A DNA stretch of 64,000 nt from Albidovulum sediminicola (GTDB lineage: Bacteria > Pseudomonadota > Alphaproteobacteria > Rhodobacterales > Rhodobacteraceae): assembly GCF_025751575.1 (NCBI RefSeq), contig NZ_JAOWLA010000009.1, forward strand, positions 1 through 64,000, read 5' to 3'. Position numbers and translations under genes: made by a program. Shown piece by piece: positions 1,860-23,423 of the stretch. The notes below the pieces were generated by a model that searched no databases, was not told where the DNA came from, and was given only the letters and a program-made list of their open reading frames with translations. Within the stretch, counting starts at the first letter, position 1. The number at the start of each line of letters is the position of its first letter.

Positions 1860-1873
1860 TATCAAAAATGATA
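1860..1873. promoter_or_regulatory. Inverted repeat in the LysR/racemase divergent gap
   Basis: TATCA-AAAA-TGATA is a perfect 5-bp inverted repeat lying in the AT-rich gap between the divergent racemase-like gene and the LysR gene. It touches the LysR start codon at 1873. This is a typical position for an autoregulatory operator. The spacing is T-N12-A, one base off the classical T-N11-A LysR box, so assignment to this LysR protein is an inference. Confidence 0.4.
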
Positions 1874-2790
1874 TGAGTCAGCCACGCTTCCGCATCCCCT
1901 CCTCCAGCACGCTCATCGCGTTCGAAAGCGTCGCGCGCCTGGGTGGCGTCGGACGCGCGGCAGAGGAATTGAACACCTCGCAGTCCGCGATCAGCCGTCA
2001 TCTGAAGCATCTGGAGGATGATCTGGGCGTCCGGCTTTTCGAACGGCTTGGGCGCGGCGTGTCGCTGACCTATGCGGGCAAGACCTACCTGGATGTCGTC
2101 TCCTCGGCGCTCGGAACGCTGACCGCCGCGCGCCAGGCGCTTCGCGCCTCCTCGCGCGATATCACCATCGCTTGCACGCATGAGGTCTCGCACCTGCTGC
2201 TGATGCCGGTGTTCCGGGAGATGCGGCGCGCCATCGGCAGCGATGTGAACGTCAAGATCCTGACCTGCGAATACGATGCGATCCCCGCGATGATCCATGC
2301 CGGGGCGGATATCGTGTTCCGGTATTCCCAGATCCAGCCCGACCGCCACAGCGTTGCCGTGGTGGATGAAAGCTTCGTGCCGGTCGCCTCGCCCTCGTTT
2401 GCAGAGGAGTTCGACGCGATCCTTCGCCGGCCGCCCCCGGATTGGGCAGGGGTGCCGCGCCTGGCGCTAACCAAGAACAACTTTGGCTGGGCGACCTGGG
2501 ACACCTGGTTCGGCGCCCTGGATGCGGTTCCGCCCGCTGCGGCGACGGACACCTATGACAACTACGTCTACCTGCTGGAGGCCGCCGCCGCGGGAATGGG
2601 GTTGGCCCTGGGATGGTCGGGGTTCGTCGACAGGTACGTCGCCTCCGGCGCGCTGGTCAGGGTCACCGACCACCTGATCACGCGGCCGACCAAGCTCTAC
2701 GCCGTCGGCACGCGAAAGGGTGACTTCAACAAGGGCACCCGGAAATGCCTGGACTTTCTTTCAAGCCTGTATGCGCGCCGGGTCGGCTGA
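1873..2790 (+). CDS. LysR-family transcriptional regulator (GcvA-like)
   Basis: A 305-residue LysR-type regulator. Residues about 8-66 form the winged helix, with AAEELNTSQSAISRHLKHLE as the recognition region. Residues about 95-300 form the periplasmic-binding-protein-like effector domain. No clear ribosome-binding site precedes the ATG, which lies inside an inverted repeat, so translation may be weak or leaderless. It is divergent from the racemase/sulfotransferase/adenylyltransferase set and probably controls it. The effector is unknown. Confidence 0.85.
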   Translation: MSQPRFRIPSSSTLIAFESVARLGGVGRAAEELNTSQSAISRHLKHLEDDLGVRLFERLGRGVSLTYAGKTYLDVVSSALGTLTAARQALRASSRDITIACTHEVSHLLLMPVFREMRRAIGSDVNVKILTCEYDAIPAMIHAGADIVFRYSQIQPDRHSVAVVDESFVPVASPSFAEEFDAILRRPPPDWAGVPRLALTKNNFGWATWDTWFGALDAVPPAAATDTYDNYVYLLEAAAAGMGLALGWSGFVDRYVASGALVRVTDHLITRPTKLYAVGTRKGDFNKGTRKCLDFLSSLYARRVG

Positions 2791-2833
2791 CCCGCAGGCT
2801 GCCGGGAACCGGCCTGCGGCGGGCGCGGTAACG

Positions 2834-3727
2834 TCAGGGCTCCACCCCGCCCGCAAAGCCCTTCAACCAGCTGAAAACCACGCCCGGCACCCGCCCCGGC
2901 GAGGGCGGGGCCGACCTGATCAGGTAGTAGTGAAAGGGCGCGGGGAGCGCCTCGCGAAACAGGGCGACCAGGCGGCCTTCGGCAAGCAGCCCGTCGATCA
3001 GGGGCAGCGTCCCTAGGGCAATCCCGTGGCCGCGCATGCAGGCCTCGATCATGAGCGCGGGATCGTCGAACACCCATTCATCGGGGTTTTCGGCCATCCG
3101 GACCCCGGCCAGTTCGCACCAGTTTCGCCACATCCGCGTGTCGCCCTCGTGAAGGATGCGGTTTTCCCGGAGGGTCTTCTCCGGGTCCGCCGCCCCGGCG
3201 GAGGCCATCAGCGCGGGGCTCACGACGGGCATCTGCGTCGCCGCCATCAGCTTCATTCCGTCATGGCCTTCCGGTACGCCATTTCCCCAGATGATCGCGA
3301 TATCGACCTCTTGCAGCAGCTCGGGCCGGTCAAGCGTCACATTGAGGAGCCGGAACGCGACACCGGGATTGGCCAGGGAAAAACGGTCGAGCCGGGGCAG
3401 CAGCCAATGCGCGCAGAACAGCGGCGGGGCGGCGATCGTCACCGTTCCGGAAAGATCGCGGCTCTCGCTGTCCGTCCCGAGCAAGGCGAGATCGGCAAAG
3501 GCGCCCTGCGCCGTCGCGAAGACCGTCTGGCCGCGCCGTGTCAGAACGAGGCCCGAGCGCGTGCGCCGGAACAGGGACGTCCCGAAATAGGTTTCAAGCG
3601 CTTTGACTTCGTGGCTGACCGCACTTTGGGTCAGCGACAGTTCCCGCGCGGCGGCTGAGATGCTGCCATGGCGCGCCGCCGCCTCGAACGCCCGCAGCGG
3701 ATAGAGCGGTGGAAGACGCCGTGCCAT
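2834..3727 (-). CDS. LysR-family transcriptional regulator (GcvA-like)
   Basis: A 297-residue LysR regulator starting MARRLPPLYPLRAFEAAAR. The winged helix spans residues about 5-63, including ARELSLTQSAVSHEVKALE, and is followed by the effector domain with MIEACMRGHGIALGTLPL near the end. The chosen ATG is the one directly before the conserved PLxxLRAFEAAAR opening; the reading frame extends further upstream without homology. It is divergent from the FAD oxidoreductase/GcvT fusion at 3838, with a T-N11-A palindrome in the gap. It is therefore the likely regulator of the dehydrogenase-aldehyde dehydrogenase-racemase operon. Confidence 0.87.
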   Translation of the reverse strand: MARRLPPLYPLRAFEAAARHGSISAAARELSLTQSAVSHEVKALETYFGTSLFRRTRSGLVLTRRGQTVFATAQGAFADLALLGTDSESRDLSGTVTIAAPPLFCAHWLLPRLDRFSLANPGVAFRLLNVTLDRPELLQEVDIAIIWGNGVPEGHDGMKLMAATQMPVVSPALMASAGAADPEKTLRENRILHEGDTRMWRNWCELAGVRMAENPDEWVFDDPALMIEACMRGHGIALGTLPLIDGLLAEGRLVALFREALPAPFHYYLIRSAPPSPGRVPGVVFSWLKGFAGGVEP

Positions 3728-3741
3728 ACCCTGCCCACCCC

Positions 3742-3756
3742 ATGAATCTGGTTCAT
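3742..3756. promoter_or_regulatory. LysR-type operator (T-N11-A palindrome)
   Basis: ATGAA-TCTGG-TTCAT is a perfect inverted repeat containing TGAATCTGGTTCA, which has exact T-N11-A spacing. It sits 15 bases upstream of the LysR start and about 80 bases upstream of the divergent oxidoreductase start, as expected for a LysR recognition site. Confidence 0.6.
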
Positions 3757-3837
3757 ACCCGACATGAGGATTATCCGTTTTTCGAGGGCTCGGGAAGGTT
3801 CCTATGCTGCCGCCGACGACCAAGGTGGAGGCGGATC

Positions 3838-6180
3838 GTGCAGGAGAAAGTCGAAGTCCTCATCATCGGCGGCGGCGCGGTTGGCTGCTCCATCGCCTAT
3901 CACCTGACGAAGAAGGGCTGCCGCGACGTCGTGCTCTGTGAAAAGCACGAATTCGCCTCGGGCGCGACCGCCTTCGCCGCGGGTCATGTCATCCTTTACA
4001 CGCTCGATCCCACCATCAGCCGACTCAATCGCTACGGGGCAGGCCTTTACGCCCGGCTTGAGGCGGAAACCGGCATGTCGCCCGGGTTTCACCCCTGCGG
4101 CAACCTGCGGCTGGCCACTCACCCTGGGCGGCTTGACGAGTTCCGCCGCTATCTGGGGGTCGCCGAGGCCACCGGCGTCGAGGCACAGTTGCTGACACCC
4201 GAGGAGATCGGCGCGCTCTGGCCGCTGATGACGACCAAAGGGGTCCTCGGCGGGCTCTACAACCCCGGGGACGGGCATATCGCCCCTGCCGACCTGACCC
4301 AGAGCCTGGCCGCCGGGGCGCGCAAGGGCGGCGCAAGGCTGCATCGGAACTGCGAGGTCACCGCACTTGTGCCGCACGCGGACGGCTTCTGGCGCGCCGA
4401 GACCTCGATGGGAACGATCCTTGCCCGCCATGTCGTGGCCGCGTCGGGCAACCATGCCCAGCGCGTCGCCGGAATGGTCGGGCTGACCGCGCAATGCGTG
4501 CCCGTGCGGCACCAGTATTTCGTGACCGAGCCTTTGGCGGAACTCGTCGAGCGGCGCCGGGCGGGTCTGCCGGAAATGCCGGTCATGCGCGATCCCGAGG
4601 ATGTTTTCTACTGCCGTCAGGAGGGTGATGCCCTGCTGGTCGGGGCCTATGACGGACGCGGCGAGGCGCGCTTCGTCCAGGACCCGCCCGCCGGGATGGC
4701 CGAGCCCTTCCCCGACGAGATGGAGAAACTCCTGCCCTATCTCGAACGCGCGGTGGAACGGGTGCCCGCACTCGGCAGGGCGGGCGTGCGGCGCGTCGTC
4801 AACTACGCGATGCCCTACACGCCCGATGACCTGCCGACGGTGGGGCCCGCCTTTGGGCGAAAGAACCTCTGGCTCGCCGAGGGCAATCCCTTTGGCATCA
4901 CGCTTGCCGGGGGGATCGGCTGGCAGATGGCGGAGTGGATCCTTGAGGGCGCGCCCTCGATCGACATGGCGTGCTGCGATTCCCGACGCTTTGGCGAATG
5001 GGCGACGCGCGAATGGTCCGCCCGCAAGGTCGAGGAAGCCTATGAGCATACCTACCTCCTGCCCAAGCCGGGCGAGGAGCTGCCAGCGGCGCGCGGGCTG
5101 CGCACGACGCCGCTCCATGACCTGCTGGCCGCGCGGGGCGCGCGCTTCGGCGCCGTCGCCGGATGGGAGCGGCCCAACTGGTACGCGCCCGAAGGGATGC
5201 AAGACGCTCCCTCGTTCTACCGGCCCAACTGGCATGAGGCCGTAGGCCGGGAATGCCGCGCGGCGGCCACCGGTGTCGCGCTTGCGGATGTCAGCCATGG
5301 CGCGCTGATCCGTGTCTCTGGCGCTTGTGCGGAAGGCTTTCTGGCCGGCATCCTCTCGGTCGACCTGCCCGCGCCGGACCATGCCGCGGCAGGCTTTCTT
5401 CTCACCTCGCGGGGCGGGATCGAGGCCGAGGTCACCGTCACGCGGGAGGGCGCGGACCGCTTCATTCTCACGACCTCCGCCGTGGCGGAGCGCCGGGTGC
5501 TCGATGCGCTGCTGAAGTCCGCCCCCATCGGGAACAGCCCGCGGATCGAAAACCTGACCGCGTCCGAAGGCGCGCTCCTCCTTTGCGGGCCGTCCGCACG
5601 GCAGCACTTGCAGAAGGCGACCGGGGCGGCGCTGGAAGACGGAGCCTTCCCGCCCGGCGCGGTACGCGCGATCACCGTCGGCTACGCGCCGGTTCGCGCC
5701 CATCGCTGCAATCCCTTCGGCCTGCCGGGCTATCGGCTCCATGTCCACGCCGACATGCTGCGCCATGTGTTCCTCGCGCTGGAACCGGGCGCCGTCCTCA
5801 TCGGCGCGCGGGCGCTCGAGTCGCTACGACTGGAAAGCGCGGAGCCGACTTGGCCCGCAGAGCTGAATGTCGAGATGCCGCCGCCCACGGCTGCTGGCGC
5901 GCCAGAGACGGCGCAGCAGCTCGTCCACCTTCAGATCGCTGGGGCTGAGACGATGCCGCACGGGGTCGAGCCGGTCCGCGACGGCACCGGGCGGATCGTC
6001 GGGCGCACGACCTCGGCCGGATGGGGGCATCTGGGCAACAAGGCGCTGGCCTTCGCATTGCTCGCCCCCTGGGAGGGCAGGCTGGAAGTTCGCGTCATGG
6101 GCGTCTGGCATCCCGCGGCGCCAACCGACAAAAACCCCGCCGCGATGCGGGACAAGACCAAGGAAAGGGCACTGACATGA
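3838..6180 (+). CDS. FAD-dependent oxidoreductase / GcvT fusion, dimethylglycine-sarcosine dehydrogenase type
   Basis: A 780-residue two-domain enzyme. The N-terminal DAO half begins VEVLIIGGGAVGCSIAYHL (Rossmann FAD site, residues about 4-22). The C-terminal half from about residue 430 is a GcvT/aminomethyltransferase fold that in this family passes the C1 unit to tetrahydrofolate. GTG 3838 is chosen because GGAGG lies six bases upstream and the dinucleotide-binding strand follows at once. Family members oxidatively demethylate N-methylated glycines. Where relatives carry WHAAG with the histidine covalently bound to FAD, this protein reads TAFAAGH, so covalent flavinylation at that position is not possible. 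It is the first gene of an operon, its stop overlapping the aldehyde dehydrogenase start. Confidence 0.8.
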   Translation: MQEKVEVLIIGGGAVGCSIAYHLTKKGCRDVVLCEKHEFASGATAFAAGHVILYTLDPTISRLNRYGAGLYARLEAETGMSPGFHPCGNLRLATHPGRLDEFRRYLGVAEATGVEAQLLTPEEIGALWPLMTTKGVLGGLYNPGDGHIAPADLTQSLAAGARKGGARLHRNCEVTALVPHADGFWRAETSMGTILARHVVAASGNHAQRVAGMVGLTAQCVPVRHQYFVTEPLAELVERRRAGLPEMPVMRDPEDVFYCRQEGDALLVGAYDGRGEARFVQDPPAGMAEPFPDEMEKLLPYLERAVERVPALGRAGVRRVVNYAMPYTPDDLPTVGPAFGRKNLWLAEGNPFGITLAGGIGWQMAEWILEGAPSIDMACCDSRRFGEWATREWSARKVEEAYEHTYLLPKPGEELPAARGLRTTPLHDLLAARGARFGAVAGWERPNWYAPEGMQDAPSFYRPNWHEAVGRECRAAATGVALADVSHGALIRVSGACAEGFLAGILSVDLPAPDHAAAGFLLTSRGGIEAEVTVTREGADRFILTTSAVAERRVLDALLKSAPIGNSPRIENLTASEGALLLCGPSARQHLQKATGAALEDGAFPPGAVRAITVGYAPVRAHRCNPFGLPGYRLHVHADMLRHVFLALEPGAVLIGARALESLRLESAEPTWPAELNVEMPPPTAAGAPETAQQLVHLQIAGAETMPHGVEPVRDGTGRIVGRTTSAGWGHLGNKALAFALLAPWEGRLEVRVMGVWHPAAPTDKNPAAMRDKTKERALT

Positions 6181-7631
6181 GCGCTGCGATGAAGGACTAC
6201 TGGCGGAACTATATTGGCGGGAAATGGGTCGACGGCGCGGCAGGCGGGCGGATCACGCTGCTCGACCCCGCGACGGGCCGGCCGCTCTCCGAAGTGGCGC
6301 GGGCAACGGCGGCCGATGTGGACAGCGCCGTGGCTGCGGCGCGGCGCTGCGTCACGTCGCGCGCGCTGATCGACAAGCGCCCGATGGCGCGCGGCCGCAT
6401 GGTGGCCGAGATCGGCCGCAAGCTGCGCGAACGCTCCGAGGAGATCGCTACGCTCATCTCGCTTGACGCCGGAAAGCGCATCTCGGAGGCGCGCGGCGAG
6501 GTGGAGGGCTCGGCCAAGTATTTCGAGTATTACGGCGGGCTCGCCGCGCAGATCGAAGGCCGTTACATCCCGCTGGGCGATGGCTATGTCGATTACGTGG
6601 TTCCCTACCCCTACGGCGTCAGCGCCCATATCATCCCCTGGAACTTCCCGCTCAACATGATCGCGCGGTCGCTGTCGGCGGCGCTGGCGGCCGGCAACGC
6701 CTGCGTGGTCAAACTGCCCGAACTCGACCCGACAGCAGGCTATGTCCTGGCCGAACTGGCCGAGGAGGTCGGACTGCCGGAAGGCGCGGTGAACCTGATC
6801 TGCGGCTACGGCCACGAGGCGGGCGCGGCGCTCGCCAGCCATTCTGACATCGACCAGATCGTCTTCACCGGTTCGGTCGTCACCGGCCGCAAGGTCGCTC
6901 ATGCCGCCGCCGAAAGCCTGATCCCCGCGGTGCTCGAACTTGGCGGCAAGACCCCGGGTATCGTCTATGGCGACGCGGATCTGGACAACGTCGTGGCCCA
7001 AACCCAGGCGGGCATCTTTTTCAACACCGGCCAGTGTTGCGATACCATGTCACGCCTCGTCGTCCATGACAGCCTCTACGACGAGACGGTGGAACGCCTC
7101 GCCGCCATGGCCGGCGGCCTCAGCATCGGTGCCGGGATGGAGGACCCCGACATCACGCCACTGATATCGGCCGAACAACTCGCCAAGGTCGACACCTACG
7201 CGCAGATCGGCGTTCAGCAAGGCGCCCGGGCGGTGGCGGGCGGCCGCAAACTGGACCGCGAGGGAAATTTCATGGCCCCGACGATCCTGGCCGACGTGTC
7301 CCCCGAAGACCGGGTGAACAAGGAGGAGATCTTTGGCCCGGTGCTCTCGGTCCTGAAGTTCTCCGACCCGCGCGAGGCCTTAGCGATCGCGAACGGCACG
7401 GAATACGGTTTGGCGGCGGTGGTCTTCACCAACGACCTCGACCGGGCGATCTGGACGACGGAGCGGCTGGAGGCGGGACAGGTCCATGTGAACGAATGGG
7501 GCGTCGGCGGTGTCGAGACCCCCTTCGGCGGCTTCAAGAACTCCGGCATCGGCCGAGAAAAAGGCGTCGAAGCGCTGGCGAGCTACTATCAGTCGAAGAA
7601 CGTCGGCATGAAGCGCCTGCAATCCTTCTGA
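6177..7631 (+). CDS. NAD(P)-dependent aldehyde dehydrogenase
   Basis: A 484-residue aldehyde dehydrogenase of the usual family length. IIPWNFPL (oxyanion asparagine), FTGSVVTGR (nucleotide fold), LELGGKTP with the general-base glutamate, and FNTGQCCD with the catalytic cysteine are all present. It resembles betaine-aldehyde dehydrogenases, but substrate cannot be told from sequence. The start overlaps the stop of the FAD oxidoreductase (ATGA), so the two are co-translated. The aldehyde may be the formaldehyde or amino-aldehyde product of that enzyme. Confidence 0.87.
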   Translation: MSAAMKDYWRNYIGGKWVDGAAGGRITLLDPATGRPLSEVARATAADVDSAVAAARRCVTSRALIDKRPMARGRMVAEIGRKLRERSEEIATLISLDAGKRISEARGEVEGSAKYFEYYGGLAAQIEGRYIPLGDGYVDYVVPYPYGVSAHIIPWNFPLNMIARSLSAALAAGNACVVKLPELDPTAGYVLAELAEEVGLPEGAVNLICGYGHEAGAALASHSDIDQIVFTGSVVTGRKVAHAAAESLIPAVLELGGKTPGIVYGDADLDNVVAQTQAGIFFNTGQCCDTMSRLVVHDSLYDETVERLAAMAGGLSIGAGMEDPDITPLISAEQLAKVDTYAQIGVQQGARAVAGGRKLDREGNFMAPTILADVSPEDRVNKEEIFGPVLSVLKFSDPREALAIANGTEYGLAAVVFTNDLDRAIWTTERLEAGQVHVNEWGVGGVETPFGGFKNSGIGREKGVEALASYYQSKNVGMKRLQSF

Positions 7632-7687
7632 TCCATGTGCCGGGCGTTCCGCAAGCGCCCGGCATTTTCCAGAACGAGGAACCGCCG

Positions 7688-8422
7688 TTGATCTACAAGG
7701 CACAGAAAGGCCGTGACATCTATGGCGCCCCGGTCGGCATCATCGTCATGGATTGCGCGATCCCCTACCCGCCCGGCACCCCCGGCAATCCCTCAAGCTT
7801 CGGTTTCCCGGTGCTATACGAAGTCGTGCGCGGCGCCACCATGGACAGCTTGATCTACACGCCCGACTCGCGGCTGGCGGAGCCCTTCCTGGAGGCAGGC
7901 CGCAGGCTCGTCGCCCAAGGGGTGCGCGCGGTCTTCGGCAATTGCGGCTTCATGGTCCTGTTCCAGGAGCGCATGGCCGCCGCGTTGCCGGTGCCGGTCT
8001 TCATGTCGAGCCTCTTGCAACTGCCGCTCGCCGCGCGCGGTCTGGCGCCGGGGCAGTCGGTCGGCATCATCTCGGCCAGCGCGGCCTCTCTGACGGAAAG
8101 GCACATGGAAATCGCGCTCGGGGGGGCCGAAGTCGCCTTCCATATCACCGGGCTCGAAAACCGGCCGGCCTTCAAGGCCGCGGTGCATGATCAATCTGGC
8201 GCGCTCGATTTCGAGGCGGTCGAGGCCGAGGTCGTCGCGGCCGCGCGCGACTTGATTGCCGCACACCCCAAGATCGGCACGCTGCTCTTCGAGTGCACGG
8301 ACCTTCCGCCCTATGCCCATGCGGTGCAGCAGGCGACAGGCCTGCCCGTCTTCGATATCTCCACTCTGATCGGTTTCGGCGCCGCCTCGGTCATGCGCCG
8401 TCGCTTCAGCGGCCACTATTGA
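7688..8422 (+). CDS. Asp/Glu racemase superfamily protein
   Basis: A 244-residue protein. The two cysteine motifs expected for the superfamily are visible in FGNCGFM (about residue 82) and FECTDLPPYA (about residue 202). The start is set at TTG 7688 because GAGGA lies seven bases upstream and the conserved GIIVMD strand follows; no suitable ATG exists. It is third in the operon with the FAD oxidoreductase and aldehyde dehydrogenase. Its end overlaps the convergent LysR gene by 17 bases. The substrate is unknown; a racemase or isomerase step acting on the demethylated product is an inference. Confidence 0.65.
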   Translation: MIYKAQKGRDIYGAPVGIIVMDCAIPYPPGTPGNPSSFGFPVLYEVVRGATMDSLIYTPDSRLAEPFLEAGRRLVAQGVRAVFGNCGFMVLFQERMAAALPVPVFMSSLLQLPLAARGLAPGQSVGIISASAASLTERHMEIALGGAEVAFHITGLENRPAFKAAVHDQSGALDFEAVEAEVVAAARDLIAAHPKIGTLLFECTDLPPYAHAVQQATGLPVFDISTLIGFGAASVMRRRFSGHY

Positions 8423-9347
8423 CGACCGCGCTCCGGGCGCGCTCGGCCTCGACATCGGCGACAAGCCAATCCGCGAAGGCGCGGATCTTGCGGTCACGTT
8501 CGCGATCCGCGCGGTACAGCACCGCCCAGTCGCCGCGCGAGCGCGCCACCAGATCGACCGGCAGCACCAGTTCTCGCCGCCGCAGTTCCTCTTCCGCGAA
8601 GGGACCGTTAAGCATCGCGACCCCGGCGCCGGCGATCGCCATCTCCAACGCCAGCGCGTAGGTATCGACCTTCGTGTAGCGCAACGCCGGGGCATTCTCG
8701 ATGCCGGCGGCCCGGAACCAGTCGCGCCAATCGTTGGGCGCCGAGGACACCTCGATCAACGGCAGGCCGAGGAGGTCGGATGGCGTCACCACCGGGCTCA
8801 GCGCAGCGAGGATCGACGGGCTGCACACCGGATAGAGCGTGCCCTCGAACAGTCTGCGCGCGCGCAGGCTACCCGGCAGGTCACGGTCGACATACATGAT
8901 CGCGATGTCGGTATTGGCCTCGTCGAACCACCATTCCGTGCGCCGCGTGTTCAGCGAAAAGTTAATCTCGGGGTGAGCGGCATGGAAGCGCGAGAGCCGC
9001 GGCGACAGCCAGCGGATCGCCACGGTGACATAGGTCTCGATCCTCAGATCGGCCTCCGGACCGTGCCGCCTGATGATGCCGGCGCCGGTCACCAGCGTCT
9101 CGAGCGCCTGCCGTGCATAGTCGTAGAAGACCCGCCCCTCCTCGGTCAGGGCGACCGAGCGCCCCTCCCGCAGGAAGAGCGCGCAGCCAAGGTCGTCCTC
9201 AAGCTGGCGGACCTGATGGCTGATCGCGACATGCGTCAGGTTGAGCTCATCCGCCGCCTTGCGGAAGCTGCGCAGCCTTGCCGCCGCCTCGAATCCCTTC
9301 AGCGCGTTGAGCGGTGGCAATGAGCGGAATGGCTGGCGTCCATTCAA
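8406..9347 (-). CDS. LysR-family transcriptional regulator (GcvA-like)
   Basis: A 313-residue LysR regulator with winged helix at residues about 8-66 (LNLTHVAISHQVRQLE) and a full effector domain. No in-frame ATG fits, and TTG 9347, seven bases after a G-run, gives the family-typical opening FRSLPPLNALKGFEAAAR. It is divergent from the MttB-family methyltransferase at 9499, with a T-N11-A palindrome between them, and so probably controls that gene. Confidence 0.85.
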   Translation of the reverse strand: MNGRQPFRSLPPLNALKGFEAAARLRSFRKAADELNLTHVAISHQVRQLEDDLGCALFLREGRSVALTEEGRVFYDYARQALETLVTGAGIIRRHGPEADLRIETYVTVAIRWLSPRLSRFHAAHPEINFSLNTRRTEWWFDEANTDIAIMYVDRDLPGSLRARRLFEGTLYPVCSPSILAALSPVVTPSDLLGLPLIEVSSAPNDWRDWFRAAGIENAPALRYTKVDTYALALEMAIAGAGVAMLNGPFAEEELRRRELVLPVDLVARSRGDWAVLYRADRERDRKIRAFADWLVADVEAERARSAVVNSGR

Positions 9348-9498: not shown

Positions 9499-11088
9499 AT
9501 GAACCAGATGCAAGTGACCGAACCACGGCGCGGCGGGCGCGCGGCGCGCCGTGCCCTGAGGGCGGCACCTGGCGAGTTCGATCTGCGTCCGGTGCGCGGC
9601 GGCATGGAGAACCCCCGCCACTTCCGCCCGCTAAGCGAGACCGACATGGCGCGCATCCACCGGGCCGCGCTTGACGTTTTGGAAACGGTGGGCATCGGCG
9701 ACTGCCTGCCCTCGACGGTCGACTACCTGACCCGGATCGGCTGCATCTACCGCGACGACGGCCGCATCACCTTTCCCCGCGCCCTGGTCGAGGACTACAT
9801 CCCCCGCATCAACCGCGACTTCCTGCTTGCCGGGCGCGATCCGCGTCACGACATGCACATGCAGGCCAGCCGCTTTTACTGCGGCACCGCCGGGGCGACG
9901 GTCAACATGGTCAACCCGCGCACCGGCGCCTATCGCGGCACGACGCTTCACGACCTCTACGACTGTTCGCGCCTGGTCGATACGCTCGACAACATCCACT
10001 TCTTCCAGCGCACCGTGGTCCCGCGCGAGATCGAAGACTTCTTCGAGATGGACTTCAACACCTGCTACGCGAGCCTGGCCGGAACGTCGAAACATGTCGG
10101 CACCAGCTGGGGCGGCGTGCGGCAGCTCGAAGCCTCTCTGGACGTGATGCATCTGCTCGCCGGAAGCGAGAAGGCGTGGCGCGAACGGCCATTCGTGTCG
10201 ATGTCCTGCTGTTTCACGGTCTCGCCGCTGAAATGGGCGGCCGACAGCTGCCTTTGCCTGGAGGTCGGCGCGAAGGCCGGCATGCCGATCATGCTCGTTT
10301 CGCTGGGTCAAGCCGGCGCCACTGGCCCGGCGGCGCTGGCCGGCAACGTGGTGATGATCCTGGCCGAGCTCCTGGCCGGCATGATCTATGTCGACGCGGT
10401 CGCGCCGGGCAATCCGGTGATCCTTGGCTTCTGGCCATTCGTGTCTGACCTACGCACCGGGGCGATGTGCTGCGGCAGCGGCGAACAGGCGCTGCTGACA
10501 GCGGCCTGCGGACAGATGAGCCGGTATTACGGGCTGATTTCGGGGATCCCTGCGGGCATCGCCGACAGCAAGATGCCGGACGCGCAGTCGGGCTACGAAA
10601 AAGGCCTCAACCACGTCGTCACCGCCAATTCCGGCGCCAACCTGATGTATGAGGCGGGCGGAATGGTCGCCTCGCTCATGGGTTTCTCGCTCGAAAGCCT
10701 GGCGATGGACAATGACTCGATCGGGGCGGCGCTGCGCACGGTGCGCGGCATCGACGTGAACGAGGACACCGTTTCGGTCGATGTCATCCGCGAGGTCTGT
10801 CTGGACGGCCCGGGCCATTTCCTCGCCCATGGGCAGACCATGCACCTGATGGAGCGTGATTACGTCTATCCGAAGCTTGGCGACCGGATGAGCCCGAGCG
10901 AGTGGGCCGAAAAGGGCCGCCGGACCGCGCTTGACCGCGCCATCGACCAGGTCGATCAGACGCTTGGCGCGCATTATCCGGAATACATCCCCCGCGCGAT
11001 CGACGAGGCGATCCGCGCGAGATACCCGGTCCTCCTGCCACGCAACCGCATGCGCCCGAACGCCGACTGGCCGCGAACCTGGGGCTGA
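9499..11088 (+). CDS. MttB-superfamily methyltransferase, non-pyrrolysine
   Basis: A 529-residue member of the trimethylamine methyltransferase (MttB) superfamily. The N-terminal RRGGRAARRALRAAP and the C-terminal DGPGHFLAHGQTMHLM are features I recognise from roseobacter members. The frame has no internal TAG, so it lacks the pyrrolysine of archaeal MttB and belongs to the MtgB-like branch, whose studied members demethylate quaternary amines by transfer to a corrinoid protein. GGAAAGGG precedes the ATG. No corrinoid protein or corrinoid:folate methyltransferase gene is nearby. It is monocistronic and divergent from a LysR gene. Confidence 0.82.
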   Translation: MNQMQVTEPRRGGRAARRALRAAPGEFDLRPVRGGMENPRHFRPLSETDMARIHRAALDVLETVGIGDCLPSTVDYLTRIGCIYRDDGRITFPRALVEDYIPRINRDFLLAGRDPRHDMHMQASRFYCGTAGATVNMVNPRTGAYRGTTLHDLYDCSRLVDTLDNIHFFQRTVVPREIEDFFEMDFNTCYASLAGTSKHVGTSWGGVRQLEASLDVMHLLAGSEKAWRERPFVSMSCCFTVSPLKWAADSCLCLEVGAKAGMPIMLVSLGQAGATGPAALAGNVVMILAELLAGMIYVDAVAPGNPVILGFWPFVSDLRTGAMCCGSGEQALLTAACGQMSRYYGLISGIPAGIADSKMPDAQSGYEKGLNHVVTANSGANLMYEAGGMVASLMGFSLESLAMDNDSIGAALRTVRGIDVNEDTVSVDVIREVCLDGPGHFLAHGQTMHLMERDYVYPKLGDRMSPSEWAEKGRRTALDRAIDQVDQTLGAHYPEYIPRAIDEAIRARYPVLLPRNRMRPNADWPRTWG

Positions 11089-12167: not shown

Positions 12168-12271
12168 CGTCACCCGGTTGCTGGTCGCCACGCCCGTCGC
12201 CCGCCATCCAGCGGGCGCGCATGCACGTTTCCTGCGTAGCGGGTTGACCAGACAAGGTCAAAGGCGGCGCG

Positions 12272-16223: not shown

Positions 16224-17138
16224 TCAGCGGTTCGGGTACTCCGAGACCGAGATGATCCAGTCCCGCACCAGACAGGCATGCGGCGACAGCGGACGCTCGG
16301 TCGACCACACAAGGTAGATCCCGTTGTCGGTGCGCCAGGCCCATTCCTCTAGTCCGACAAGCAGTTTCCGCTCGATCAGATTGCGAACGATGTGCCGCCA
16401 GCCGAAGGCGAAGCCCTCACCCGCGGCGGCGGCCTGAAGCACAAGGGCGTAGTCGTTCAGCCGGAGGCCCGAGTCCAGATCCTGCCGGACAACGCCGTGG
16501 TGGGCGAACCAATGCGCCCAGGTCGGGCGCACGCGCACCGGCTCCTCCAGGTGGATAAGCCGCTGCTCTGCCATGTCCGCGATGGTTCCGATGCCGCCCG
16601 CGCCCAGCGCGAAGCTCGGACTGACGACGGGAAAGATTACCTCATCCGCGATCCGCGCCGCTGCACAGCCCGGCCAGTCGCCGTCGCCAAGGCGAACGGC
16701 AAGGTCGATATTCTCCGCATCAAGGTCGGGCTCACGGTCGCTGTTTTGCAATCGCAGGTCGATCGCGGGATGGCGCGCGCGCAGATCCGGCAGCTTTGGC
16801 ATCATCCAATAATATGAGAATGCCGAGGAGGCGTTCAGCGTGACATGCTCGTCGCGCCCCATGCGGTGAACGGCCAGAACCGAGGCCTCGATCTCACCCA
16901 GTGCGCGCGAGACATCCGAGTAAAGCCGGTGCCCGGCGCTGGTCAGTTCGACCTTCCGGTGCCCCCGATGGAAGAGTTTTACGCCCAATCCTTCCTCAAG
17001 CTGCTTGATCGCGGCGCTTACGGAGGGTTGCTGGGTGCTCATTTCATCCGCTGCCCTGGTGAAGGAACCAAGCCGCGCCGCTGCCTCGAACACCACGAGG
17101 TTTCGGGAGGAGGAGACGAGTTTCCAGAGCTTTCGCAT
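16224..17138 (-). CDS. LysR-family transcriptional regulator (GcvA-like)
   Basis: A 304-residue LysR regulator. The winged helix is at residues about 12-70 (ADEMSTQQPSVSAAIKQLEE), followed by an effector domain in which WMMPKLPDLRARHPAIDLRL is typical. The ATG has no strong ribosome-binding site. It is divergent from the dimethylglycine dehydrogenase-type gene at 17328, across a 189-base gap, and is its probable regulator. Confidence 0.86.
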   Translation of the reverse strand: MRKLWKLVSSSRNLVVFEAAARLGSFTRAADEMSTQQPSVSAAIKQLEEGLGVKLFHRGHRKVELTSAGHRLYSDVSRALGEIEASVLAVHRMGRDEHVTLNASSAFSYYWMMPKLPDLRARHPAIDLRLQNSDREPDLDAENIDLAVRLGDGDWPGCAAARIADEVIFPVVSPSFALGAGGIGTIADMAEQRLIHLEEPVRVRPTWAHWFAHHGVVRQDLDSGLRLNDYALVLQAAAAGEGFAFGWRHIVRNLIERKLLVGLEEWAWRTDNGIYLVWSTERPLSPHACLVRDWIISVSEYPNR

Positions 17139-17203: not shown

Positions 17204-17327
17204 CGGTCAGCTTCTGCCAAAGCCGCCGATGGCGGGACGCGCCCGCGCGCCCCTTGTGGCCGCGAAAGCCGACGCCGGGCCCCGAACGCCCTGCACCGCC
17301 ACGAAACTCACGACCTGAGAGGCCACG

Positions 17328-19775
17328 ATGCCCGAGATCATCAAGGAAGAATCCACCGGGCAGAAGGCGCTGCCGAGCCATGCCAAGGTCGTCATCATCG
17401 GCGGCGGCGTCGTCGGCTGCTCGATCCTGTTCCACCTCGCGAAGTTCGGCTGGAAGGATGTCGTTCTGCTGGAGCGCAACGAACTGACCTCCGGCTCGTC
17501 CTGGCACGCGGCGGGCCAGATCCACACGATCAGCTCCGACCCCAATATCTCGCGCCTGCAAAGCTACACGATCGGCCTTTACAAGGAGATCGAGGAGCTC
17601 TCCGGCCAGTCCGTCGGGCTGCACCTGACCGGCGGCTTCTACCTCGCCTCCAACAAGACCTGGTACGACTACCTGAAGCGCGAGCGTTCGAAAGCGCGCT
17701 ACATGGGCCTGAACCAGGAGTTCATATCGCCCAAGGAAGTGGCCGAGCGGCATCCCCTGATTGACCCGAAATACTACTACGCAGCCCTTTGGGACGATCA
17801 GGACGGCGACCTTGATCCTTCGGGCACTACCTATGCCTTCGCCAAGGCCGCACGCCACTATGGCGGCCGTTACTTCACCTACACGCCGGTCACCGCGACG
17901 ACCCAGCGGCCCGATGGCACCTGGGACGTGACCACGCCCAACGGCACCATCAACGCGGAGCATGTGGTGAACTGCGGCGGCCTCTGGGCGCGCGAGGTCG
18001 GCCAGATGGCGGGCCTCAATCTGCCCGTACAGCCGATGGAGCACCATTACCTTTTGACCGAACGGATCGACGCGATCGCCAATGCGGGCAGCCGACTGCC
18101 CTGCGGCTTCGACTATGAGGCGAACCTTTACTTCCGCCAGGAACGCGACGGGATGCTCCTGGGCACTTACGAGCCCAAGGGAACGCCCTGGAAGGTGGAG
18201 GGCACGCCCTGGGACTTCGGGCATGAGCTCTTGCAGCCGGATCTGGAACGGATCGCGGACCGGCTCGAACTTGGCTTCGAGCGCATCCCCGCGCTTGGCA
18301 ATGCCGGCATTCGCCAAGCGATCAACGGCCCCTTCACCTTCGGCCCCGACGGCAACCCGATGATCGGCCCGGTGCCGGGCATGCGCAACTACTGGTGCGC
18401 GGTCGGCGTCATGGCAGGTTTCTGCCAAGGCGGCGGCGTCGGCCTGACGATGGCCGAGTGGATGATCGACGGCGAGCCCTCGATCGACGTCTGGGCCATG
18501 GACGTGGCGCGGTTCGGGGACTGGGCCTCGCCCGACTGGGGCACCATCAAGTCCTGCGAGAACTACGAGCGTCGTTTCGTGATGACCTTCCCGAACGAAA
18601 CGCTGCCAAAGGGCCGCATGCAGCAGACGACCGCGCTTTTCGACCGGCTGACCGCGAAGGGCGCGCGGATGGGGCCGTCCTTCGGACTCGAACACGCGCT
18701 CTGGTTCGCCGACAGCCCCGAGGACGCCTGGGAGGATCCGACCTTCGAGCGCAACCGGTCCTTCGACTATGTCGCGCGCGAGGTGAAGGCCGTGCGCGAG
18801 GGCGTCGCGGGCATCGAGGTCGCGAACTTCGCCAAGCACGAATTCAAGGGCGCCGGCGCGCGGGCCTATCTGGACCGGACCATGGCGGGTTACATCCCGA
18901 AACCCGGCCGCATCGCGCTGTCCCCGATGCTGACCCCGAAGGGCCGGCTTTACGGCGACCTGACCGTGGCCTGCCTTGCCGAGGATCACTTCATGGTCTT
19001 CGGATCGGGCGCGATGCAGGACGCCCACCGCCGCTGGTTCGAAAAGGACCTGCCGGCGGACGTCGCCTATGCGAATGTGACAGCCGATTGGCACGGGGTC
19101 GCGATCTCTGGCCCGAAGTCCCGGGATCTGCTGGCGCGCATCACCCGTGACGATGTCTCCTCCGCGGCCTTCAGGTTCCGCGACACGCGCAAGACCTTCG
19201 TCGGCGGCGTTCCAGTGATCCTCAACCGGATCAGCTTCTCGGGAGAGCTTGGCTATGAGATCTACTGCCGCCCGCAATATCTTCTGAAACTCGCCGAGGC
19301 GATCGAGGAGGCGGGCGCCGATCTTGGCTATCGCTGGTATGGCAACCGCGCGCTGATGTCGCTCAGGCTCGAAAAGGGCTGGGGCGCCTGGGCGCTGGAG
19401 TTCCGGCCGGACTTCAACGCGATCGAATCCGGGCTCGATGTCTTCATCAACTGGAAGAAGGACTTCGTCGGAAAGGAAGCAACCCTGAAGTTCCGGGACG
19501 AGGGTGCCAAACGCAAGCTCGTCACGCTCGCCATCGACAGCGAGATCGACGTGACGGTCGATGAGGCGGTGCTGAAGGACGGCCGCGCGGTCGGATACAT
19601 CACCTCGGGCGGCTACGCGCACCACGTCGGCAAGTCGATGGCGCTGGCCTATGTCGCGGCAGAGCACGCAGCGCCAGGCGCGAAGGTCCAGGTGGAGATG
19701 CTGGGTCAGTTCTACGACGCCGAAGTTCTGGGCGGGCCTGTCTACGACCCGGATGGCACGAAGATGCGTGCGTGA
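17328..19775 (+). CDS. Dimethylglycine/sarcosine dehydrogenase-type FAD oxidoreductase with GcvT domain
   Basis: An 815-residue enzyme. Residues about 20-40 are the Rossmann site (VVIIGGGVVGCSILFHLAKF). TSGSSWHAAGQIHT contains the histidine that binds FAD covalently in dimethylglycine and sarcosine dehydrogenases. The C-terminal third is the folate-binding GcvT fold, with RISFSGELGYEIYCR and LRLEKGWGAWALEF as signatures. Expected reaction: oxidative N-demethylation with transfer of the methylene to tetrahydrofolate. GAGAGG lies five bases before the ATG. It differs from the island's other copy (3838) in keeping the histidine. It is followed after 22 bases by the broken GlxA-type regulator. 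Confidence 0.88.
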   Translation: MPEIIKEESTGQKALPSHAKVVIIGGGVVGCSILFHLAKFGWKDVVLLERNELTSGSSWHAAGQIHTISSDPNISRLQSYTIGLYKEIEELSGQSVGLHLTGGFYLASNKTWYDYLKRERSKARYMGLNQEFISPKEVAERHPLIDPKYYYAALWDDQDGDLDPSGTTYAFAKAARHYGGRYFTYTPVTATTQRPDGTWDVTTPNGTINAEHVVNCGGLWAREVGQMAGLNLPVQPMEHHYLLTERIDAIANAGSRLPCGFDYEANLYFRQERDGMLLGTYEPKGTPWKVEGTPWDFGHELLQPDLERIADRLELGFERIPALGNAGIRQAINGPFTFGPDGNPMIGPVPGMRNYWCAVGVMAGFCQGGGVGLTMAEWMIDGEPSIDVWAMDVARFGDWASPDWGTIKSCENYERRFVMTFPNETLPKGRMQQTTALFDRLTAKGARMGPSFGLEHALWFADSPEDAWEDPTFERNRSFDYVAREVKAVREGVAGIEVANFAKHEFKGAGARAYLDRTMAGYIPKPGRIALSPMLTPKGRLYGDLTVACLAEDHFMVFGSGAMQDAHRRWFEKDLPADVAYANVTADWHGVAISGPKSRDLLARITRDDVSSAAFRFRDTRKTFVGGVPVILNRISFSGELGYEIYCRPQYLLKLAEAIEEAGADLGYRWYGNRALMSLRLEKGWGAWALEFRPDFNAIESGLDVFINWKKDFVGKEATLKFRDEGAKRKLVTLAIDSEIDVTVDEAVLKDGRAVGYITSGGYAHHVGKSMALAYVAAEHAAPGAKVQVEMLGQFYDAEVLGGPVYDPDGTKMRA

Positions 19776-19797
19776 GGCCTGATGGGGGAGACGGGCC

Positions 19798-20801
19798 ATG
19801 ACCAAACCGATGAACATCGCCACGGCGTCCGCCGAGCCGGTTCTTCGGCGCGAACCCAAGCGCTACGTCTTCTTTCTTCTCCGCTCCTTTTCCGCGCTCG
19901 ATCTTTGTGCCGCACTCGACGCCCTGAAGGAGGCGAACAGCTTCGACGGGACCGCGCGCTACACCTGGACGACGCTGAGCGAGGACGGCAACCCGGTCGT
20001 GGCGTCGAACGGGTTGGGTTTCACGGCCGATGGGATGCTTTCGAACCTTGACCGCCGGGACACGGTCATCGTTCTCGGCGGGGACGACTTCGTATCGGCC
20101 GGGACGCTGCCCGTGCAGGCATGGCTGCGCCGCCAAGCCCGCAAGGGCGTGACCGTCGGGGGTCTACGCCGCGCGGCCTTCGTTCTGGCGCGCGCGGGCC
20201 TGCTTGACGACCACGAGACCGCTGCGCATTGGTCCTGCCAGGCCGCGTTGAAGGAGGTCCACCCCGATCTCGAAATCACCCGCGGCGTCTTCCAGATGGG
20301 TGAGGCGCGCTTCACCGGCGCGGGCGGGGCATCGACGCTCGACATCATGATCCATCTCATCAGCCGCGAGCAGGGCACGGATGTCGCCACCTGGGTCGCC
20401 GACCGGCTGGTCTATTCCGCGCACGCTGCGGGCGGCAGGAGCAGACCATCGGCAACAGTTGCCGGCTGGCCAGCCGCAACGACAAGGTCGCGGAAGCCAT
20501 CGGCATCATGACCCGCGAGATCGAATTGCAGACCCGCCCCGAGGCCATCGCGCGGCGGGTCGGCGTTTCCAGCCGGCAGCTTGAGCGTCTTTTCGCGCGG
20601 CACCTCGGCACCTCACCAAAGTCATATCTGACGAAGCTGCGCCTGGAGAAGGCGCGCGCGCTTCTGTTGCAGACCAACATGAAGCTGATCGAGGTCGCCA
20701 TCGCCAGCGGCTTCAACAACCCCGATCATTTCTCTAGGTCCTACCGGCGTCACTTTGGCCTGTCGCCCTGGCTCGAGCGCGGCATCGGCGGCCCTGAGTG
20801 A
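19798..20801 (+). pseudogene. Frameshifted GlxA/GbdR-type AraC-family regulator
   Basis: Two reading frames together make one regulator of about 334 residues. The first starts at 19798 after GGGGGAG and codes the DJ-1/GATase1-like effector domain, from YVFFLLRSFSALDLCAALDA through the expected alpha-helical linker. It then leaves frame near 20430-20445 and stops at 20511. The other frame resumes with EQTIGNSCRLASRNDKVAEA and the AraC DNA-binding domain (AIARRVGVSSRQLERLFARH, then GFNNPDHFSRSYRRHFGLSP). A one-base loss or two-base gain in the GCGGGCGGCAGG tract explains it. GbdR-like proteins of this architecture activate betaine breakdown genes, which fits the position directly after the dehydrogenase. 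True pseudogene or assembly error cannot be separated here. Confidence 0.82.
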
Positions 20802-20838
20802 AACCATCCCTCCGGGCAGCGCCTGGGCGGCCGCGGGG

Positions 20839-21738
20839 CTAGACGCCCAGCAGGGTATCCGACGCGCCGGTGGCGGAAGCCTGAAGCAGCCATTCGGCAA
20901 AGGCGGCCACGTCCGGGTTGCGCGTAGCACCGGGCTCATGGGCCAGGAAATACCCGTAATTGTCCAGCTGATGGCTGCTCAGCCGCCGCAGCCGCCCGTC
21001 CCCCAAATCACGCGCGACCAGCGCGTCGTTCAGGGCGATGCCCTGCCCGTCGATGACCGCCTGCACCCGTACGTTCGGGTCGGCGATCGTCAGCATGTCC
21101 GTCCGGCTTGAATAGCGCAAACCCGCAACCCGGTGCCAATCCGCCCAGGCCCGCGCGCCGCTGCGATCGGCCAGCAGCGTCAAGCGCCCCAGCGCGGCTT
21201 CGAGCCCGAGGTCGTCGATCATCGCAAGTGCCTCGGGCGCGCCGGTTGCAAAGGCCGGGCAGAGGAACAGCGGTCGGATCGCCACATCCGTCCAGTCCCC
21301 GCAGCCCCAACGAATGGCAAGGTCGATACCCTCCGCCCCCAGTTCCGACAGGTCGATCATGGGCTGGATGCGCAGCCGCACGCGGGGATGGGCCTTCATG
21401 AACAGCATCAGCCGCGGCGAGAGCCATCGCGAGGCGAAATAGGTGGTCACCCCGATGGTCACGGGACGCGCCGGAGCCTCGCGCAGGTCGGCGATCCGCG
21501 CCTCGACGGCATCGAACGCCACCCCGAGCGTCATCCAAAGCTCCTGTCCCTTGGGGGTCAGGGAAATGCCGCGGGGAAGCCGGTTGAAAAGCGGGAAACC
21601 AAGGGCGTGTTCAAGCCCACGGATCTGGTGGCTGACGGCGCCCTTGGTCAGGTTGAGCTCTTCCGCCGCGGCCGCAAAGCTTGCGTGACGCGCGACGATG
21701 CTGAAGATGCGCAGACTGTCGTAGTGCTGAAACCGCAT
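20839..21738 (-). CDS. LysR-family transcriptional regulator (GcvA-like)
   Basis: A 299-residue LysR regulator from MRFQHYDSLRIFSIVARHAS. The winged helix is at residues about 5-63 (AEELNLTKGAVSHQIRGLEH), with an effector domain containing GIDLAIRWGCGDW. An ATG 30 bases upstream, at the end of MDGIGKLYGS, is an alternative start. It is divergent from the second MttB-family gene, with an inverted repeat in the gap. Confidence 0.86.
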   Translation of the reverse strand: MRFQHYDSLRIFSIVARHASFAAAAEELNLTKGAVSHQIRGLEHALGFPLFNRLPRGISLTPKGQELWMTLGVAFDAVEARIADLREAPARPVTIGVTTYFASRWLSPRLMLFMKAHPRVRLRIQPMIDLSELGAEGIDLAIRWGCGDWTDVAIRPLFLCPAFATGAPEALAMIDDLGLEAALGRLTLLADRSGARAWADWHRVAGLRYSSRTDMLTIADPNVRVQAVIDGQGIALNDALVARDLGDGRLRRLSSHQLDNYGYFLAHEPGATRNPDVAAFAEWLLQASATGASDTLLGV

Positions 21739-21744
21739 GCTTCC

Positions 21745-21761
21745 GTATAATTTTCCTATAC
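21745..21761. promoter_or_regulatory. LysR-type inverted repeat upstream of second MttB-family gene
   Basis: GTATA-N7-TATAC is a perfect inverted repeat with T-N11-A spacing (T21746 to A21758 and T21748 to A21760). It lies seven bases from the LysR start and contains TATAAT, so it may also overlap a promoter -10 box. Confidence 0.5.
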
Positions 21762-21863
21762 CATCCATGCAATTCGTTTCGCTTGTTCTTGCGGCAGGAC
21801 TGGCTCTACGAACGCCTATACGGGCGCTGCGGCGACCCAGGCCACAGATCGGAGGGTCTAGCA

Positions 21864-23423
21864 TTGCTATCCTCGGAAGGACGCGCAACCCCGCCCACCG
21901 CAACCCCAGGCAGGCGCGGCGGCCGGGCAAGGCGCAGGGCCGGCGATACCGGCCCCACGGCGGCGGGCGCCGTCCGACGCCGGATACCGGCCTGTGAGCT
22001 TCTGGATGCGGAGGCGCTGGCCGCCCTCGAAGAGCAGGCCGACTGGATACTGACCGAGATCGGGATCGAGTTCCGGGGCGATGCGGAGGCGCGGCGGCTC
22101 TTCGCGGCGGCGGGCTGCCGGGTCGAAAACGAACGGGTGCGGTTCCAGCGCGGTCAGGCCGCAGAAATCTGCGCCACGGCCCCGGCGGAGTTCACGCTGC
22201 ACGCCCGCGATCCGCGCCACTCCGTGATCCTTGGCGGCGATCACCTGGTGCTGATGCCGGGCTATGGCTCCCCCTTCGTGACCGACCTCGACCGGGGGCG
22301 GCGCTACGCGGCAATCGAGGATTTTCGCAACTTCGTGAAGCTCGCCTGGATGTCTCCCTGGCTCCAGCACTCTGGCGGCACGGTCTGCGAACCAACCGAC
22401 ATTCCCGTGAACAAGCGCCACCTGGACATGGTCCACGCCCATCTTACGCTGTCGGCCAAGCCCTTCATGGGGGGCGTCACCGCGCCGGAGCGGGCCAGGG
22501 ACTCGATCGAGATGGCGCGGATCGTCTTCGGTGCCGGGTTCGTCGCGGAAAACGCGGTGATGCAGGGCAATATCAACGTCAACTCTCCCCTCGTCTTCGA
22601 CGAGACGATGTCGGGCGCGCTGCGGGTCTATGCCGAGGCCGGGCAATGCGTTTGCGTTTCACCGGCGATCTTCGGTGGCGCGATGGGGCCGGTCACGCCC
22701 GCCGCCATCGCCGCGCAGACCCATGCCGAGGCCATGGCCGGGATCGCCCTGGCGCAGCTCGTGCGTCCGGGCTGCCCCGTCGTCTACGGCAGCTTCCATA
22801 ACACCATGAGCCTGAGATCTGGCGCGCTGACCTTCGGCACGCCCGAGGCGAACCTCGTGACGCTGGCGCTGGGGCAGCTTGGCCGCAGGCTCGGGGTGCC
22901 GGTCCGTTCCGGCGGCGGGCAGATCACCGCGGCGAACGCGGCGGACGGCCAGGCCATGGCGGACAGCACATCGGCCATGTGGGCGACGATCCTGTCGGGC
23001 GCGAACCAGGTCTGGCATGCCGCGGGCTGGCTCGAAGGCGGGCTGACGATGGGCTATGAGAAGTTCGTGATGGACCTCGACTGCTGCGGCGCCATGCTGA
23101 AGCTCGTCGCGGGCATGGCGGTTACGCCCGAGACGCTGACGCGAGAATCCTACCGCGAGGCTGGGCCGGGTGAGAACTTCCTGTCGACCCGGCACACGAC
23201 AGAGCATTTCGCGACCGCGAATTTCCTGCCCGGCATCGCCGAGGCCGGCCCCTACGAGACCTGGGCCGAGGGCGGGCGCCAAGGCGCCGAGGAACGCGCC
23301 AACGCGCGCTGGAAGGCCATGCTCGCCGCCTACGCGCCGCCTGCCATCGACCCCGCAATCGAAGGGGAACTGGGGGCGTTCATCGCCCGGCGCAAGGCGG
23401 CGATGCCAGACGAATGGTACTGA
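21864..23423 (+). CDS. MttB-superfamily methyltransferase, non-pyrrolysine (second copy)
   Basis: A 519-residue MttB-superfamily protein with no in-frame TAG. GPGENFLSTRHTTEHF near the C-terminus matches the conserved end motif of the family, and the barrel core carries MGPVTPAAIAAQTHAEAMAG. The start is set at TTG 21864 because GGAGG lies eight bases upstream; the frame extends 81 bases further to an ATG without a ribosome-binding site. It is diverged from the copy at 9499 and so probably has a different methylamine substrate. It is divergent from a LysR gene and convergent with folE2. No corrinoid partner gene is adjacent. Confidence 0.8.
   Translation: MLSSEGRATPPTATPGRRGGRARRRAGDTGPTAAGAVRRRIPACELLDAEALAALEEQADWILTEIGIEFRGDAEARRLFAAAGCRVENERVRFQRGQAAEICATAPAEFTLHARDPRHSVILGGDHLVLMPGYGSPFVTDLDRGRRYAAIEDFRNFVKLAWMSPWLQHSGGTVCEPTDIPVNKRHLDMVHAHLTLSAKPFMGGVTAPERARDSIEMARIVFGAGFVAENAVMQGNINVNSPLVFDETMSGALRVYAEAGQCVCVSPAIFGGAMGPVTPAAIAAQTHAEAMAGIALAQLVRPGCPVVYGSFHNTMSLRSGALTFGTPEANLVTLALGQLGRRLGVPVRSGGGQITAANAADGQAMADSTSAMWATILSGANQVWHAAGWLEGGLTMGYEKFVMDLDCCGAMLKLVAGMAVTPETLTRESYREAGPGENFLSTRHTTEHFATANFLPGIAEAGPYETWAEGGRQGAEERANARWKAMLAAYAPPAIDPAIEGELGAFIARRKAAMPDEWY

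Follow-up and report, generated by a model that had tools for sequence, protein, structure and literature searches.

Mutants of Ruegeria pomeroyi show that methionine synthesis and growth on glycine betaine both depend on MtgC and MtgD, and several PF06253 (MttB-family) genes, up to seven, have been suggested to serve other methylated compounds (PMC12478193, in excerpt). In Eubacterium limosum, three MttB homologs (MtpB, MtcB and MtyB) methylate one corrinoid protein, MtqC (PMC8604678, in excerpt). Here we describe a window of 64,000 nucleotides, the first 64 kb of contig C70 of the Albidovulum sediminicola genome (4.13 Mb, 70 contigs, 99.98% complete), in which two MttB-family genes, termed W1 and W2, stand among enzyme genes linked to LysR regulator genes. 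A sequence-only reading of the window had made a puzzle of these MttB proteins, which it saw beside enzymes using flavin adenine dinucleotide (FAD) and folate but without a corrinoid partner. Our analysis makes it highly probable that W1 and W2 each contribute a substrate-specific methyltransferase subunit to a corrinoid-dependent demethylation system, the shared components of which are encoded elsewhere in the genome.

Neither PF02310 nor PF00809 had a match in C70:1-64000, so the window indeed encodes no corrinoid protein and no corrinoid:folate methyltransferase. The genome search that the sequence-only reading had proposed was run and found one MtgC on contig C44 and one MtgD on contig C66. 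Genome-wide, PF02310 matched three proteins: two of the methylmalonyl-CoA mutase family and a single stand-alone MtgC-type protein (C44:8647-9339, 230 residues, 92.7 bits), which carries the corrinoid-binding motif GDIHDIGKN and aligns with MttC, the corrinoid partner of archaeal MttB (PDB 7xcn_M, 134 bits). PF00809 matched a dihydropteroate synthase and an MtgD-type methyltransferase (L015:9979-10938; NF005719, 410 bits, above the cut-off of 259). Next to MtgD lie a PF13769 protein and, in the position of MetF2, a protein (L015:10954-11877) that TIGR00676 matches weakly (26 bits, cut-off 294) and no Pfam family matches. DUF1638 (PF07796, 114 bits) and the homocysteine subunit MtgE (NF005718, 602 bits, cut-off 338) are encoded near the MtgC gene, and the only RACo_C_ter (PF14574) protein of the genome, a RamA-type activase, at C44:71073. 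Because the PF02574, PF00809 and PF02310 matches fall in separate genes, there is no whole MetH. Thus, 14 MttB homologs stand against one stand-alone MtgC, and the absent-partner reading is rejected because a full corrinoid set exists elsewhere in the same genome. The presence of this set is one half of what the sequence-only reading had named as counting against it, the other half being co-regulation of the set with the window genes.

Presence of MttB and MtgC was compared in a sample of 292 genomes of the order, searched with PF06253 and scored for MtgC at E < 1e-100. PF06253 was found in 265 genomes and MtgC in 264; 262 had both, 3 MttB only, 2 MtgC only and 25 neither, an agreement of 287/292 (Fisher p 1.2e-30). 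The remaining best MtgC matches, in 26 genomes at 1.3e-31 to 6.6e-27, were taken to be MetH domains, and two genomes had none. At most five candidates per genome were considered in this MttB search, and at most three in the family searches with W1 and W2, so that the results speak of presence and not of copy number. Seven of the genomes counted as lacking MttB (G260, G261, G269, G273, G276, G281, G287) were assigned by exclusion. Another sample, of 394 genomes of the family, was scored for W1-type matches at E <= 1e-170 and for MtgC at E <= 1e-60, where three of the genomes without MtgC (G470, G525, G535) were assigned in the same way. W1-type matches occurred in 72 genomes, 69 of which had MtgC; the other three (G341, G470, G525) are 71-85% complete. 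About 30 of the 74 W1-type match rows cross a stop codon, most of them presumably alignments running past the end of the gene. Among W1-type genomes of at least 90% completeness and at most 5% contamination, MtgC was present in 65/65, against a background of 329/347. MtgC also accompanied W2 in 7/8 genomes, the A. sediminicola genome included, and was missing from G535 (79% complete).

Several observations weigh against a shared corrinoid hub. The MtgC cut-off was chosen after seeing the list, yet no best match lies between 1.8e-110 and 1.3e-31. Because the genomes are related, the Fisher p overstates their independence, and the 65/65 result alone reaches only P 0.022. In model scores, the MtgC-type protein falls short of NF047996 (197 bits, cut-off 370), its top models being MtgC, MtbC and related ones, all below cut-off, and the top NCBIfam model of the activase is AcsV (388 bits, cut-off 800). 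W1 has Ala at position 111 and Leu at 372, where MttB uses Thr111 and Gly372 to hydrogen-bond the corrinoid (PMC9842639, in excerpt). An AlphaFold2 model of W1, built from 7 sequences, was poor (mean pLDDT, the predicted local distance difference test score, of 57.9), and a docking surface could not be read from it; binding of W1 and W2 to MtgC is a prediction. Finally, three genomes, G291, G039 and G149, have MttB only. In G291, which has RamA and is split into 340 contigs, MtgC may have escaped assembly. G039 and G149, both near-complete, keep an uninterrupted MttB match without a strong match to MtgC or RamA. Their single MttB proteins are of the C3 and C22a types, neither W1 nor W2: that of G039 is 74% identical to A. 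sediminicola C3, versus 78% for the protein of its congener G066, and that of G149 is 66% identical to C22a, versus 83% for the homolog in its congener G014. This divergence, seen in one comparison each, fits a relaxation of constraint once the partner was gone, though the role of these proteins may instead have changed.

The genes named by the sequence-only reading were all recovered by a Pfam scan of the window proteins (Table 1). Five LysR genes each face a divergent neighbor (1873/936, 2834/3838, 8406/9499, 16224/17328, 20839/21864), bearing out the described modules of regulator and enzyme, the structure of which is conserved in other genomes. Both fusions of an FAD oxidoreductase (DAO) with a folate-binding aminomethyltransferase domain (GcvT) have the architecture DAO + FAO_M + GCV_T + GCV_T_C, and neither has an NCBIfam model above cut-off among the 25 matches listed; we take them to resemble dimethylglycine/sarcosine dehydrogenase-type proteins. 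The top NCBIfam models of the aldehyde dehydrogenase are betaine-aldehyde dehydrogenases, below their cut-offs (TIGR01804, 430 bits versus 669). The DJ-1-like gene was considered as an enzyme and rejected, as NCBIfam matches and translation in frame liken it to the front half of a regulator. Together with the next open reading frame (ORF) it looks like one frameshifted GbdR-like regulator (NF052371, 163 and 91 bits for the two halves, cut-off 480), the frameshift being either present in the organism or an error of the draft sequence. Description of the region as an island held in part. Composition lends it little support (66.1% G+C in 1-23500 versus 67.5% in the remaining window), but both MttB genes look accessory by comparison of genomes: their orthologs are missing from G099, the sole congener in the family sample, where W1 finds at best a match of 51% identity and W2 none at E <= 1e-200.

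Table 1. Features around the two MttB genes, with positions and strands in the window and the supporting match
Feature	Position	Strand	Evidence
Amdase-like protein	936-1838	-	Pfam 25.0 bits, slightly below cut-off 25.9
LysR2, cassette 1 regulator gene	2834-3727	-	PF00126/PF03466
DAO-GcvT fusion 1 (FAD oxidoreductase + folate-binding aminomethyltransferase domain)	3838-6180	+	PF01266 231 bits, PF01571 145 bits
Aldehyde dehydrogenase (ALDH)	6189-7631	+	PF00171 506 bits
Asp/Glu racemase-family protein, PRK07475 type	7637-8422	+	PF01177; NF005679 269 bits
LysR3, divergent from MttB W1	8406-9320	-	Pfam
MttB W1, non-pyrrolysine, clade B	9499-11088	+	PF06253 331 bits
GntG/low-specificity threonine-aldolase-type pyridoxal phosphate enzyme (Beta_elim_lyase)	11112-12191	-	PF01212; NF041359 365 bits
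BCCT betaine/choline-type carrier	12272-13912	-	PF02028 599 bits
LysR4, divergent from DAO-GcvT 2	16224-17138	-	Pfam
DAO-GcvT fusion 2	17328-19775	+	PF01266 234 bits, PF01571 194 bits, PF08669 76 bits
GbdR-like (DJ-1/PfpI + AraC) regulator in two frames	19798-20801 (19798-20511, 20508-20801)	+	NF052371
LysR5, divergent from MttB W2	20839-21738	-	Pfam
MttB W2, non-pyrrolysine, clade A	21864-23423	+	PF06253 698 bits

Conservation of the cassettes was counted by tblastn (E <= 1e-25), because gene calls based on codon usage were poor for two loci (L052, L054). W1 orthologs are rare: four other loci (L035-L038) in the contig collection have them at 69-93% identity, the nearest named one in Defluviimonas salinarum (93%), and no W1 match in 393 other family genomes exceeds 54%. 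LysR2 (49-76% identity), DAO-GcvT 1 (54-82%), ALDH (72-95%) and LysR3 (62-90%) accompany W1 in 4/4 of these loci, with a different order in L038. The racemase gene occurs in one of the four (L035), and the threonine aldolase and BCCT genes were not found by tblastn within the fetched DNA of L035-L038; on these counts of 1/4, 0/4 and 0/4 the three were rejected as parts of the cassette core. In the sister group of W1, the fetched DNA of 9 of 11 loci contains a DAO-GcvT match and that of 6 a PF02574 methyltransferase as well. This homocysteine S-methyltransferase family gene lies amid the DAO-GcvT and MttB genes in L057, L058, L059, L061, L063 and L066; its A. sediminicola homolog (55% identity) is at C33:18731, away from those genes.

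W2 orthologs (64-72% identity) were found in 7/393 other family genomes. LysR5 precedes the gene in 7/7 of these loci at 46-54% identity, and a stand-alone GcvT gene (query from L049) follows it in 6/7, two of them by partial matches; at the seventh the contig ends about 1 kb beyond the gene. The top NCBIfam models of this GcvT protein are GcvT and trimethylamine N-oxide demethylase, with dimethylsulfoniopropionate demethylase lower, all below cut-off. In the window no stand-alone GcvT lies beside W2; only the GcvT half of DAO-GcvT 2, which sits 2 kb upstream past LysR5 and the GbdR-like regulator, matches (28%). The same order of LysR, MttB and aminomethyltransferase is found on a Leisingera plasmid. 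A stand-alone GcvT without an oxidoreductase half follows a W2-type MttB in L048, L049, L051, L052, L053, L054 and L069.

PF06253 gave 15 rows in the A. sediminicola genome, comprising 14 near-full-length proteins and one match of 44 positions. The latter (L028:7644-7775, equal to C11:11643-11774) is part of a decayed MttB remnant, 57 residues of which are 58% identical to the C1 homolog, with a weaker second piece. The gene beside it is presumably a pyruvate kinase, judged from its protein start. A FastTree phylogeny of 32 sequences (the 14 A. sediminicola proteins, 15 relatives and three solved structures) grouped W2 with MtgB (9yce) and 4yyc in a large clade A, and W1 in a clade B with C11b, C15, C13 and a second protein of Ruegeria atlantica. 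Clade B has no characterized member in this tree. Among its A. sediminicola members pairwise identity is 39-50%, against 21-29% with clade A and with pyrrolysine MttB; C6, at 15-23%, is a remote outlier. By phmmer, W2 matched 4yyc at 517 bits and MtgB (2qne) at 383 bits. Over the printed part of 9yce, W2 is 41% and W1 28% identical to MtgB, too low for a substrate to be assigned, and W1 is likewise 28% identical to pyrrolysine MttB. Flavoenzyme genes lie near all four A. sediminicola genes of clade B, namely DAO-GcvT for W1, C11b and C15 and a flavin mononucleotide oxidoreductase for C13. Both window proteins are non-pyrrolysine homologs, as had been claimed, with Ile at the pyrrolysine column 334 of the alignment and PF06253 matches free of internal stops. 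Of the MttB residues pointed out in PMC9842639 (in excerpt), W1 keeps Gly110 and Tyr364. W2 keeps Gly372, with Tyr, Gly and Trp at positions 110, 111 and 364; the aligned dimerization region (396-452) is present in both.

Other MttB homologs have neighborhoods of their own. Downstream of the C22a-type MttB come a haem-NO-binding (PF07700) gene and a GGDEF gene, and in G149, one of the genomes without a strong MtgC or RamA match, homologs of the three genes cluster, a single extra ORF being called between them (L018:8791-12105, L056:4992-10320). The C1-type MttB adjoins an Amdase-family gene (PF17645; L021:8379-15537) and two genes that we take for hydantoinase subunits. The C3-type MttB (L017:2939-10445) follows what, from the protein starts, is presumably a phosphate-uptake and PhoU/PhoB-like gene set.

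Three alternatives to a shared corrinoid hub serving both proteins were weighed. The best surviving, though unlikely, is that W2 and DAO-GcvT 2 form the ordinary glycine-betaine pathway of MtgB, dimethylglycine dehydrogenase and GbdR, with only W1 acting on another substrate. The GbdR-like regulator between DAO-GcvT 2 and LysR5 and the place of W2 in the MtgB clade speak for it, but A. sediminicola has homologs as near to MtgB as W2 or nearer (C3 43%, C16 42%), and G014, G066, G291 and G039 yielded C3-like proteins while W2 orthologs are rare. For neither W1 nor W2 did literature listings on MttB in Rhodobacteraceae and in Roseobacter and on homarine operons show a substrate. Homarine and trigonelline are possible candidates; for homarine, a role of Mgd in its catabolism is described (PMC13390433, in excerpt).

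It is improbable that one or both genes are relics or have a non-catalytic role. Decay may happen in this genome, because it holds the MttB remnant and the split GbdR-like regulator, and the match of the W2 ortholog in G299 runs across two stop codons. Column 338 holds Asn in W2 and Lys in most aligned homologs; Asn338 is, however, common to the four W2 orthologs of the tree and to C1, C22a and C11a, which makes it a feature of the lineage. Furthermore, both window genes are uninterrupted, and their orthologs keep the same neighbors in other genomes at the identities given above. Slightly less probable still is the transfer of methyl from W1 or W2 to a non-corrinoid acceptor, such as folate on a GcvT-type partner: the GcvT genes that follow W2 elsewhere, with their best models, and the MttB genes kept by G039 and G149 would favor it, but MttB and MtgC agree in nearly the whole order sample, the window's W2 lacks such a GcvT, the MttB proteins of the exceptions belong to different types and are more diverged, and for MttB-superfamily members characterized by 2021 the methyl acceptor is free corrinoid or a corrinoid protein (PMC8604678, in excerpt).

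In the system of MttB subunits around one corrinoid hub that we favor, each MttB gene would be switched by its own LysR regulator. W1 and W2 would each remove one methyl group from a methylated amine, probably a quaternary one (a betaine), and pass it to the single stand-alone MtgC, which the RamA-type activase would keep reduced. MtgD is predicted to move the methyl group from MtgC to tetrahydrofolate, where the MetF-like protein may oxidize it, and the same MtgC and MtgD, with MtgE, would serve methionine synthesis. Later N-methyl groups could be taken off as methylene-folate by the DAO-GcvT fusions and the carbon skeleton processed by the aldehyde dehydrogenase. If this is true, one B12-dependent hub and a set of single-enzyme cassettes would open the use of many methylated nitrogen compounds, and turnover of these compounds would be tied to the supply of B12. 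The 14 MttB homologs, clade B foremost, are a defined list of enzymes for substrate discovery.

A further proposal, which we hold tentatively and at slightly less than even chances, is that LysR-MttB-(DAO-)GcvT units are mobile plug-in cassettes without a corrinoid gene, working only with the MtgC/MtgD/RamA hub of the host, and that clade B (W1, C11b, C15, C13) is a separate group of demethylases, with substrates other than glycine betaine and with flavin and folate enzymes finishing demethylation. Mobility is suggested by plasmid records. MttB-like genes occur in 187 of them (E <= 1e-20), 118 from Sinorhizobium, versus MtgC at 60% identity or more in 15 of the 129 records with any MtgC match, and tyrosine recombinase genes flank a LysR-MttB-FAD oxidoreductase unit on a plasmid of Roseovarius indicus that is typed as conjugative (L071, NZ_CP031599.1:114464-129921). 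The R. pomeroyi megaplasmid has LysR, MttB, aminotransferase and two FAD oxidoreductase genes together. Counting against the proposal, MttB and MtgC occur together in at least two records of very large size (CP090106.1 and NZ_CP104127.1; 3.5-3.7 Mb).

The arrangement is conserved and organized, but it is best explained by a published system. Literature listings on MttB and homarine in Rhodobacteraceae and excerpts of PMC12478193, PMC8604678 and PMC9842639 showed neither the 14-to-1 array nor the co-occurrence pattern and its exceptions, the pair of conserved cassettes or clade B, and an excerpt of the first of these makes no mention of W1 or its cassette. The pyrrolysine trimethylamine methyltransferase MttB (7xcl/7xcm/7xcn; PMC9842639, in excerpt) is kin in sequence (TIGR02369, 358 bits for W1 and 232 for W2, cut-off 525), but W1 and W2 have Ile at its pyrrolysine column and no in-frame amber codon. 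As far as excerpts of PMC8604678 go, E. limosum likewise encodes MttB homologs (MtpB, MtcB, MtyB) separately and has one corrinoid protein (MtqC), one corrinoid:tetrahydrofolate methyltransferase (MtqA) and RamQ; it is an acetogen, whereas the A. sediminicola hub, by analogy with R. pomeroyi, would also make methionine, and the cassettes described here carry FAD-folate enzymes. Closest is R. pomeroyi DSS-3 MtgBCD(E), a dual methionine synthase and glycine betaine demethylase (PMC12478193, in excerpt), in which, as in A. sediminicola, PF06253 subunits are encoded apart from a stand-alone MtgC. As far as that excerpt goes, the two also share a pterin-binding MtgD, MtgE, RamA, DUF1638 and the lack of a whole MetH, and the gene adjacent to MtgD in A. 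sediminicola fits MetF2 by position; R. pomeroyi-type genomes have up to seven PF06253 genes, whereas the A. sediminicola genome has 14 near full length.

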